Shown here: positions 43,235-46,790 of the stretch, piece after piece | Layout: every line of letters starts with the position of its first letter | Numbering within the stretch: position 1 is the first letter of the stretch | DNA from: Cylindrodendrum hubeiense | Lineage: Eukaryota > Ascomycota > Sordariomycetes > Hypocreales > Nectriaceae | Assembly (NCBI GenBank): GCA_014621425.1 | Contig: JAANBB010000011.1 | Coordinates: forward strand, 248,001-312,000 | DNA: 64,000 nucleotides | Direction of reading: 5' to 3' | Position numbers and translations under genes: made by a program | The notes under the pieces: model-generated | The model's input: the letters and a program-made list of their open reading frames with translations, nothing else | What the model was told of the DNA's origin: nothing | The model's database searches: none

Positions 43235-45700
43235 TCAAGTACTCTTTCTCATCCGTTCTTTTTCTCTTGACATCTTCTTGAAAAAGGCACTTTGATCAGC
43301 TCTTTTGTTCTTCATCAATGTACCAGGTGTTCGCTTTATTTTATCATTCGTCTTTCCGTTACTTTTCTGCCTCACACAGAAGAGATCGTCAGTCACAATT
43401 TCTTCCTCAGTCGACTTCTCGTTATCGGCCAGTGTACGTCGGAGCAACTCTTGTCGCTCCGCTGCAGTATTAAACGCAAGATTAGGCATCTTGTCTATGT
43501 TGGCTAGCTGTGTGATCACTTTGAAGGCGTAGCCCTGGTCCACTAGGAATGCCTGTCGCTTTGACGAATAGTACATTTCTTGCGTGTCTTTTGAGACCAG
43601 GGAATAGAAAAAGGCATTAAATCCCGTATCACTTCTGCGTTTTGCCCGTAGAATTCTGCCGAGCCTTTGCGCCTCTTGCCGACGTGACCCGAAGTGGGAA
43701 GAGATCTGGATTAGACAAGTTGCTTCGGGAAGATCTAGAGATGTGTCTCCGATCTTGGAGAGGAATAAAGTATTGACAAGGGGGTTATGTTGAAAGTTTT
43801 CCAAAATCCTGATACGCTCCTCCTGTCCAGTGGCACCATATATAAAGGCCTTGCCGAGTTTCAGTGCATAGAGCTTTAGCGCATAAAGCTCATCTGAAAA
43901 GACAATGATCTTATCACCGCGAGCCTCATGGTAGTCGATAAGATACTGACAGGCTTGGAACTTGCGAGGGTTCAGAGCCCCTAGGGTTCGCTTTAGACGC
44001 GCTGGTAGTTGTAGGTACTGATTATAAAATTCAGTTGGCATCGGGCACCAGACTTCTGCACATTGAACCTTGGCAATATGTCCTTGCTTAGATAATTCCA
44101 TCCAGTCCGCTTCGTAGAGCTTGGGGCCGATGAGGAAGTTGAGGTGTAAAATCTTATCGTCTTCGCGGAGCAGGGTCGCCGTGAGACCGAGTTTTGAGTG
44201 TGCTTTGATAGATGAGATGACCCTCCTGAAAATATTGGCAGGTACAACATGGACCTCGTCTAAGAGCATGAGGCCCCATTCTCGGCCTTGTAAAAAGTCC
44301 ATCATCTTTTTGGAGTCGTGAGACCGCTCACGGTTGTTGGTAACCATCGAATACGTTGTAACGATGACGCCGGTACTGCCCGAAAATCCGCTCTTATTGT
44401 CGGCCGTGAAGGTGGTGATACTCTCAGGATTGATATTCGACCACTTTAAAAATTCATTACGCCACTGCACAGCAGATACTGAGCTAGTACAGAGTACAAC
44501 GACACCTTTCTTGATTGTGCATGCCGCTGTGATGCCAACTAATGTCTTGCCAGCACCACATGGTAGAACAATGATTCCACTCTTGGCTCGACCGTTTCCA
44601 AACATCTTACTCAAGCTCTTCTCTTGGTATGGGCGAATCTGCGTATTAGGTCGTAGATCAATTTCGAGATCTGCGTTAACATGATCATGGCGAAAGGCAT
44701 ATTCCTCCAGGATAGGGTACGAGAGCTCCAAGCATTGCTTCTGGACCGTCTCGACAGCGACATCAGGAATCTCGAAGGCGTGCACAGCTTCTTTTTCATC
44801 ATTGTCATCTTCGCTCAGTGCGGCATAGATATCTACGTCATTGGAGTTTGGTGCCGCTTCGGTGATCTTGTTCGTATGGTGGAGGTTGGCTTGCTGAACA
44901 CCGGCAGCGTTCTTAGTCCCGGGAATGACGAGACCTCCAATTATGGGTTCAAATGTTGTCGTGATTTCACCTGAGCCTTGCACTCGAAGCTTTCCTATGA
45001 CTTCATCCTTCAGGAGCATTTGAAGAACCTCGGCGTCTGCACTCTCCACAAAGTACTTGTTGCTTTTCAACACCAACTTCACTTTCCCGTAGCTCTTCGT
45101 ACAGGACTTAATGAATTCCTGGATACTAGAGGGAAGCTCCGTCTTCAGGAATCGATCGAGAGTATTGATAATGTCCTGGGGATTCAAGCCAACAGAAACT
45201 GCAGTGTAGAGGCTATGGACTGTTAAGGCGTACTCGTGGAGAAATGTGGGTCTGGAATTGGGCTCCGCGATCGTGATGAGAAAGTCGGTGGCCTGATCTG
45301 ATAGAGGAGTAAATCTTTCAAGAATAATGACTCCTCTGTTAGGGTCGATCCATAAAGGGCGGTTTTGATGGTCCGGTTTGAGGGGTAGATCGGAGAAATC
45401 TCGATTTCCAAAGTATCGTGACATATCATTTCGCGCGCTATGCTTGCTAGACTCATCGTGATGTTGGAAGCGGTCGCTAGAAACTTCCCACGAGCTGACA
45501 AATGTATCCGCCTCCTTCTCTAATTTATCTTCCCTTGCTTTCTGTACCTCCGTCACGTTCTCGTCGAAATCGACGGGATTGGAAGGTATGTCGGGTTCGA
45601 TGCTTCGGCGCGTTGATGAGCCCGGGGTTGAGTTGGTATAGATTTTGCCGGCTTTCGAAGAGCCAGGCGTCGCATTCCGGGCCTTTCTCTTGGGAAGCAT
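43235..45700 (-). CDS. XPB/Ssl2-type DNA helicase (TFIIH translocase family), 821 aa, intronless
   Basis: The first true ATG is at 45700 ([15 protein letters not shown]). Superfamily 2 helicase motifs: [11 protein letters not shown] (Walker A), [10 protein letters not shown] (DEVH box), [14 protein letters not shown] (contains the XPB RED motif) and [21 protein letters not shown] (motif VI). The N-terminal damage-recognition-like region and the [24 protein letters not shown] end are family features. XPB unwinds promoter DNA in transcription initiation and opens lesions in nucleotide excision repair, in the nucleus. Some conserved positions look altered ([19 protein letters not shown] has a small internal repeat), so this may be a paralogue rather than the essential copy. 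It has no introns and lies between two diverged direct repeats. Confidence 0.9.
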
Positions 45701-46498
45701 GATCGCGACGCTGGCTCGCTCGGGGAAGAGACGTGCGGCAGAGTGATGTGGATTGAAGGTGGACGGACTTTTAGAAACAGAAACGAGTTTACAGTACGTA
45801 CTCCGTAGGAAGTACAACTGTCAGACGGAGGAGGAGTCGGCCCGGTCGCGATGACTAAGAAACATGGGAATGGGCGTCGCGACCTTGAAACCAACTCATC
45901 ACCAGCATCTTCATTGAAGGCAGTGACAACGACAGAAACAAAATTGTACCTATCGCCAATTACAATCGCCTGCTTATCCCCCTTTCATCATCAGTTTCCC
46001 TGGGTAGTATGCGTACATCACTCAGGCCGTGTGTTTGCATTAGTCGATGACATGATTGCCAAGCACGCCTCATATCGTATGTGGCAGGCCGAGATCCAGA
46101 CCCAACAAGATGGGGTTTCCATAAATTTTGTGCCCATTCTTGTACCCCGTAATTTGATGCCAGATGGTGTAGGGTATGTCAGAACTTGGGGGTTGGTGTA
46201 GATTGGCGCACCAAAAACAAAAGAAAAGCCTGGTCTCTTGAGCTCTGGTCTTCATAGGCGACCAAAAAAATGTAACATCATGTACACCACGTTGTGGAAG
46301 GAATCTAACGATAATCAACTGTGTCGCGGCGCAATAAAGGATTAATACGCTCTCGGCCGTATTCAGCCTAAGCAGCTAGCTGAATCGCGCTATCGTGTAT
46401 TTATTTCTACACTGTCCCCCATTCAGGACGTCCCTCGTCGCGACGGATTTTCAATCTGAAGGGATAATCGACATGGAGCCTCCATGATCTTCAACAAT
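45701..46498. other. Spacer with repeat copy B
   Basis: No gene is supported. It contains the repeat copy at 46103-46169 and the 5' flank of the tRNA gene. Confidence 0.45.
46103..46169 (+). repeat. Diverged direct repeat, copy B
   Basis: Matches 42730-42797 in the same orientation, with shared blocks GTACCCC and TAATTTGATGCCAG. The pair brackets the transporter fragment and the helicase gene. Confidence 0.7.
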
Positions 46499-46625
46499 GC
46501 GGGTTTAGCTCAGTTGGGGTATGTCACTACATTAGTCCCTATTCGAGAATAATAACTAACCTTCACTGACAGAGAGCGTCAGACTGAAGATCTGAAGGTC
46601 ATGTGTTCGATCCACATAAACCGCA
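46499..46625 (+). tRNA. tRNA-Phe (GAA) gene interrupted by a 54-nt insert in the D-loop
   Basis: The two flanks, 46499-46518 and 46573-46625, together form a standard 73-nt tRNA-Phe: 7-bp acceptor stem with one mismatch (G5-A68), D-arm GCTC/GAGC, anticodon stem TCAGA/TCTGA with loop CTGAAGA (GAA at 46586-46588), T-arm ATGTG/CACAT with loop TTCGATC, and discriminator A. Box A (TAGCTCAGTTGG, 46506-46517) and box B (GTTCGATCC, 46605-46613) are intact, and TTTTT at 46635-46639 could end Pol III transcription. The usual tRNA intron position next to the anticodon has no insert. The 54-nt insert is described separately. Whether the tRNA is functional is unknown. Confidence 0.85.
46519..46572 (+). 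other. Spliceosomal-intron-like insert inside tRNA-Phe
   Basis: The 54 bases begin GTATGT, contain ATAACTAAC (branch-site consensus CTAAC at 46556-46560) and end CTGACAG, 12 bases after the branch site. These are the signals of the mRNA introns in this window, in order and at the right spacing. The insert falls between GGG and AGAG of the D-loop, just after box A. Confidence 0.8.
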
Positions 46626-46790
46626 GTTACTATCTTTTTGCATAAACCATGTATAAATGAGAGTGGCAAGGGAATTCAATCCAACAAGTGGTGCAATTCA
46701 CATCACAAAGCGGTGACTGGCCTCAAATTGTATCATAGTCTTGGTGTGATAGGTATATTGCTCTCTGCCCCATCCTATTCGCACCCGTGA

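Follow-up and report, generated by a model that had tools for sequence, protein, structure and literature searches.

The stretch analysed here, referred to throughout as the window, comprises 64,000 nucleotides (nt) of contig JAANBB010000011.1 from the ascomycete Cylindrodendrum hubeiense and contains, at positions 46499-46625, a transfer RNA (tRNA) gene, tRNA-Phe(GAA), with 54 nt inserted between G20 and A21. That the D-loop of this gene harbours a spliceosomal-type intron, as first proposed from the letters alone (hereafter the sequence-only reading), was confirmed to the base at these positions, in what appears to be a working RNA polymerase III (Pol III) gene. The elements of the locus are as follows.

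46492..46497, plus strand: CAACAA directly 5' of the tRNA, a possible Pol III start region resembling the CAA/CATC stretches before sibling tRNA genes
46499..46518, plus strand: exon 1 of tRNA-Phe(GAA), tRNA positions 1-20, with box A at 46506-46517
46519..46572, plus strand: 54-nt spliceosomal-type intron, splice-signal score 20.2 bits
46519-46524, 46556-46560 and 46570-46572, plus strand: intron donor GTATGT, branch site CTAAC and acceptor CAG
46573..46625, plus strand: exon 2, tRNA positions 21-73, with anticodon GAA at 46586-46588 and box B at about 46604-46614
46635..46639, plus strand: run of five T, Pol III terminator, 3' of the tRNA

The intron reads GTATGT...ATAACTAAC...CTGACAG, and both internal promoter boxes are intact, box A lying entirely in exon 1 and box B in exon 2. 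A run of at least four T was present within 30 nt downstream of 13/13 loci examined in the Phe and Asn families described below (a decayed copy included) and 3' of both split tRNA-Cys loci, and 12 of the same 13 Phe and Asn loci had CAA or CATC no more than 25 nt before the gene, a frequency without statistical control. Removal of the insert left 73 nt that ARAGORN called as tRNA-Phe(gaa), whereas nothing was called with the insert kept; scans of the whole window for tRNA genes returned none from ARAGORN and none from Rfam at gathering scores. The description of the spliced product as a standard 73-nt tRNA is a little too favourable, in that G5 faces A68 in the acceptor stem. This pair 5-68 is mismatched in 8/8 intact tRNA-Phe genes (G-A or G-G, the intronless copy having G-G) and in both split tRNA-Cys genes (A-G).

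Splice signals were scored against messenger RNA (mRNA) introns of the host assembly (47.5 megabases in 798 contigs), within which all paralogue searches and family comparisons were also carried out. Two typed tubulin proteins were aligned, allowing for splicing, with four loci of the tubulin family. This yielded 18 GT-AG introns, reduced to 17 by exclusion of a 191-nt intron; the five introns of the fourth locus come from a weaker alignment (635 vs 1641-2258). These 17 introns scored 15.7-23.1 bits under a model trained on themselves, a range that is if anything flattered. All 12 introns of intact Phe and Asn genes and the intron of a U6 gene (see below) fell inside it at 18.0-22.3 bits and the two Cys introns scored 15.4 and 19.4 bits, which places 13 of the 14 tRNA introns within the mRNA range. 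When the window insert was shuffled 200,000 times, 2 shuffles reached 18.0 bits, the lowest score among the introns of Phe, Asn and U6. The window pattern is not a product of chance, being rare in shuffles and recurring in six other intact tRNA-Phe loci. With mRNA-range splice signals and exact removal restoring the gene, the tRNA inserts would classify as U2-type introns.

The Phe family was gathered by genome searches using the window locus and the spliced tRNA as queries. Eight further loci were found (six intact and split, one decayed, one intronless), giving nine in all: seven intact with an intron (the window gene on contig C13, three in tandem on C70, and one each on C111, C444 and C295), one decayed with an intron (L007, contig C31) and one intronless (C557, at 92% in the search with the spliced tRNA). 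The introns and flanks of the three tandem genes (L072, G000:C70:36500-38500) are clearly different. An extra tRNA-Phe on C360 is surrounded by numerous tRNAs of different isotypes and, judging from these tRNA-rich surroundings, is presumably mitochondrial. The seven intact introns span 53-57 nt, all with GTAWGT or GTACGT, CTAAC, and ACAG or GCAG, and the 73-nt exons are identical in six of the seven loci; the C111 exons depart at two sites, namely a D-loop base and the already mismatched position 68. The split genes have the T-stem pair A49-T65, as against G49-C65 plus A57 in the intronless variant. In the decayed L007, 63/73 exon positions match the main type, the intron ends have changed from GT to TT and from AG to AC, and the splice score is 9.9 bits.

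Searching with the intronless tRNA-Asn(GTT) gene returned one full match (C795) and five matches starting at position 22, and an intron was found in five of these six loci at the same structural site as in Phe, just before A21. The Asn introns are 51-54 nt long (GTAAGT...ACTAAY...AAAG), with the acceptor AAAG occurring also in a beta-tubulin intron of the same genome, and the exons of all five equal the intronless Asn gene at 74/74 sites. A combined Asp and Cys query gave 11 full Asp matches and, for Cys, three full matches, one near-full match that proved intronless, and two starting at position 22. In tRNA-Cys(GCA) an intron is thus present in two of six loci, L124 (G000:C368) and L125 (G000:C155), the intronless ones lying on C137 (two), C623 and C69. 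These introns, of 52 and 53 nt, are inserted in the D-stem at 24/25, unlike those of Phe and Asn, with junctions GAG/GTACGT...CAG/CGAG and GAG/GTATGG...CAG/CGAG between exons that are identical in both loci. Both structural sites, before A21 (Phe, Asn) and at 24/25 (Cys), lie 3' of box A and 5' of box B, so that the promoter is spared.

After intron removal ARAGORN assigned the correct isotype to 14/14 intact split genes and to 0/1 decayed copies. The intron was correctly placed in none of the same 14 genes when unspliced (12 Phe/Asn, 2 Cys): ten received no call, two were given a wrong isotype, and for two the isotype was right but the intron wrong. A pattern of box A, 1-3 nt and GTAHGT occurred at 35 places vs 40 in a reversed control; 12 of the 35 are the Phe and Asn genes and 23 lack a tRNA 3' half. 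The GTGDGT version gave 26 vs 46 in the control, and no tRNA was apparent in the two places viewed by eye. These D-arm patterns are blind to other spacings, and the GTAHGT pattern failed to pick up the Cys genes. The isotypes covered were Phe, Asn, Asp and Cys, with 63 of 1339 candidates scored in the Rfam tRNA search and 40 of 63 in a search using a query of eleven concatenated tRNA genes. Exact D-arm-plus-donor patterns for Phe and Asn had no match in the collections viral_contigs and genome_contigs, as expected since these hold viruses and prokaryotes.

Differences were counted over all pairs of intact split genes within the Phe, Asn and Cys families, the pairs being non-independent and the decayed Phe copy excluded. 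Exons differed at 12/2345 positions and intron interiors at 25-35%: 12/1533 vs 148/583 for Phe, 0/740 vs 93/263 for Asn, and 0/72 vs 8/27 for Cys. The window copy and L008 agree at 73/73 exon positions, while their introns share 34 matches vs a mean of 30 and a maximum of 37 in 300 shuffles. Donor, branch site and acceptor are kept while the remaining intron sequence drifts. Invariant exons beside drifting introns are most simply explained by selection acting on the mature tRNA, for which the intron must be removed, and L007, having lost its splice sites together with its tRNA, shows what relaxed constraint looks like. It could be argued that the split genes are relics that have died or fallen silent, and that the intronless Phe, Asn and Cys genes feed the cell; the intronless copies listed above do exist, and L007 is truly decayed. 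The near-zero exon change beside heavily altered intron interiors, the contrast with L007 (63/73 exon identity, splice sites gone) and the T-runs at 13/13 Phe/Asn loci, the decayed one included, and at both Cys loci make this improbable, and the pseudogene alternative of the sequence-only reading lapses with the conservation of exons amid drifting introns. Gene supply was also estimated, from residue use in 16 open reading frames of the window (7524 residues: Phe 3.92%, Asn 3.72%, Asp 6.07%, Cys 1.63%). The 11 Asp genes correspond to about 1.8 genes per percent, which predicts about seven genes each for Phe and Asn; the actual counts are eight and six including the split genes, and one and one excluding them.

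The window locus is very probably a functioning tRNA-Phe gene, transcribed by Pol III, whose U2-type intron the spliceosome removes. The intact boxes A and B, the terminator and a cloverleaf under constraint would mark it as a functional Pol III tRNA gene, and from this anatomy, together with the gene families, exon constraint and splice signals, we infer both its transcription and the machine that splices it. Pol III would read from the internal boxes A and B, set 54 nt farther apart, to the T-run; the spliceosome, acting through GTATGT, CTAAC and CAG, would release the intron in lariat form and ligate G20 to A21; and the tRNA would fold after splicing, its mature product being the same as from five other intact split genes. 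Several points weigh on the other side. Each isotype retains at least one intronless gene, so that the split genes need not be essential. Gene conversion could partly explain exon identity, although as a leveller it would need to halt at every exon edge. The supply estimate is rough, with one clean comparison family (Asp) and residue use from a single window, and Cys is off the ratio, having six loci for 1.63%; as four of these six are intronless, beyond the ratio's demand, the split Cys genes look dispensable. The Cys intron of L124, at 15.4 bits, scores just under the bottom of the mRNA range, and its branch site is weak. Finally, 4/4 central pairs of a bulge-helix-bulge, without flanking helices, are possible in five of the seven intact Phe genes.

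The last point concerns the proposal that the inserts are ectopic tRNA introns cut by the tRNA splicing endonuclease, as put forward for the D-loop introns of Cyanidioschyzon, their likeness to mRNA introns being incidental. The endonuclease is presumably present and operating alongside, since ordinary anticodon-loop tRNA introns occur in the genome, e.g. in Ile and Leu. The statement of the sequence-only reading that nuclear tRNA introns adjoin the anticodon applies to these Ile and Leu introns at 37/38 and is too narrow in general, tRNA introns outside the anticodon loop being described for Cyanidioschyzon merolae and the nucleomorph of the cryptomonad Guillardia theta in PMC3978253. The same text reports, for C. 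merolae, introns in the D-loop and a permuted gene with its junction at 20/21, which resemble the present case, and a relaxed or missing motif for some such introns; it differs in treating the introns as endonuclease substrates, with a bulge-helix-bulge in C. merolae and without a defined one in many Guillardia introns, and in the passages concerned spliceosomal signals are not mentioned (PMC3978253). Like canonical introns at 37/38, those of Phe (20/21), Asn (before A21) and Cys (24/25) make precursor splicing necessary, but they differ in position, signals and presumed enzyme. A simple scan without positive control found no strict bulge-helix-bulge among the 12 intact genes for Phe and Asn, the outer helix having 0-1 and the inner 0-2 pairs. 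The 4/4 central pairs of the five Phe copies, which share exons and nearly the same donor and are thus non-independent, were reached by 223/3000 shuffles, so that this pairing is better than in most shuffles and a relaxed motif, with the central helix alone, may be present; the remaining two Phe and all five Asn genes attain 3/4, like 1458/3000 shuffles. An endonuclease would also have no need for a donor, branch site and acceptor conserved amid drift, and cutting by this enzyme is accordingly judged unlikely, removal by the spliceosome being preferred.

Pairing between intron and exon 2 was examined in the precursors. Six of the seven intact Phe introns have the same letters at the place of window positions 46561-46568 (CTTCACTG), which lie between the branch site and the acceptor. 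Together with adjacent bases this stretch can form 7 base pairs (bp) with exon 2, as do 17-40 of 500 shuffles; the pairing could prevent the anticodon arm from closing ahead of splicing, or could be a matter of chance. A helix between the intron 3' end and exon 2 reaches 7 bp in six Phe copies and is absent in L008, and in Asn reaches 7 bp in one of five genes (60/500 shuffles) and 5 bp in four. The predicted D-stem pairing probability in the precursors is 0.00 for Phe and 0.48-0.94 for Asn, and the Asn values rule out a D-arm blocked before splicing as a shared feature.

Use of the spliceosome could be explained without any link to Pol III if the tRNAs lay within RNA polymerase II transcripts that were spliced like mRNA, the tRNA being freed later. 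The intact Phe loci are located on five contigs, each with a T-run within 30 nt, and any two of them have 31-41 matches over their 60-nt flanks, a figure without chance control to which the upstream flanks of L001 and L002 (47/60) are the exception. With boxes A and B intact as well, this is the least plausible of the alternatives and can be given very little weight beside Pol III transcription followed by spliceosomal removal.

A second kind of Pol III gene in the genome also carries an intron of this type. The Rfam U6 search (47 of 2596 candidates scored) identified at least two U6 genes, of which L080 (C450) is intact and without an intron and L081 (G000:C41:36727-36888, minus strand) contains a 58-nt spliceosomal-type intron, GTGAGT...TACTAAC...CACAG, that interrupts the gene between ACAGAGAAGAT and TAGCATGG, beside the ACAGAGA box. 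Genome searches using the window intron with its flanks and the introns of L008 and L006 found no near copy outside the tRNA-Phe loci; the L008 and L006 searches missed more diverged Phe introns too and so speak against recent or near copies only. An introner-like element, with many near-identical copies at unrelated sites, was rejected as a candidate, the queried introns having matched tRNA-Phe loci alone, and the recent jump of such an element envisaged by the sequence-only reading does not fit Phe introns that are old and diverged. The mean similarity between Phe and Asn intron interiors was reached by 0/1000 plain and 2/1000 block-preserving shuffles, and by 4/1000 with three representatives of each; that of the best pair was reached by 21, 88 and 30 of 1000 shuffles. 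As the copies are non-independent, these values are suggestive only of a common origin of the Phe and Asn introns. The intron would have been gained by an ancestral tRNA-Phe gene, the most likely route being reverse splicing into the tRNA followed by reverse transcription and recombination, and would then have spread through gene duplication, with further entries into tRNA-Asn, tRNA-Cys and a U6 copy amounting to at least two additional events. Reverse splicing into an abundant RNA is the route we infer from the U6 case.

The references for the fission yeast U6 intron are reportedly Tani and Ohshima (1989, 1991). Fission yeast U6, a Pol III RNA, carries an mRNA-type intron (PMC10484740), and in this it resembles the split tRNA genes, as does L081 of the present genome. 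The difference is that U6 is a component of the spliceosome with an intron near its catalytic nucleotides, for which reason reverse splicing has been proposed for U6 (PMC10484740), whereas a tRNA is no part of the spliceosome. The claim that a working Pol III gene with mRNA-type splicing would be new is overstated in view of the U6 cases; a tRNA as the host would be new. Among the papers listed by searches of an open-access library, no title or abstract opening described spliceosomal introns in nuclear tRNA genes, subscription journals and preprints being mostly outside this search. Ribosomal RNA (rRNA) is transcribed by RNA polymerase I. Spliceosomal introns in ascomycete ribosomal DNA, going by a title in the reference list of PMC2586383, likewise interrupt a non-coding RNA gene but differ in that the host is rRNA and not tRNA. 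In PMC8450103, the noncanonical-intron search of tRNAscan-SE 2.0 is described for its archaeal mode, so that split fungal tRNA genes would stay unseen.

The neighbouring open reading frame at 43235-45817 on the minus strand encodes an intronless XPB/RAD25-like helicase of 860 amino acids, which among the best 120 of 5115 matches is nearest to a Neonectria protein (82% identity), followed by score by Dactylonectria (77%) and Fusarium (79%) proteins, which agrees with a Nectriaceae-like host.

The case for tRNAs matured by the spliceosome is, as far as sequence evidence can carry it, a strong one. Standard tools can miscount the tRNA genes of genomes like this, ARAGORN having placed 0/14 introns correctly. 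If the interpretation is true, these genes would show in nature how the spliceosome handles a very short Pol III transcript, and would do so for several isotypes, at varied divergence and with intronless sister genes as controls; since the insertion sites are known and the target RNAs abundant, the reverse-splicing model of intron gain could also be tested directly. The insertion sites recognised so far comprise two structural sites in three isotypes. More tentatively, and with somewhat less than even confidence, the spliceosome may be a routine tRNA-maturation enzyme in this lineage on which most Phe and Asn genes and some Cys genes depend. Decoding would then be tied to splicing capacity, D-arms behind box A may be recurrent landing sites for reverse-spliced introns, and, as common tRNA finders do not seek such introns in eukaryotes, more isotypes of this kind may well have gone undetected.
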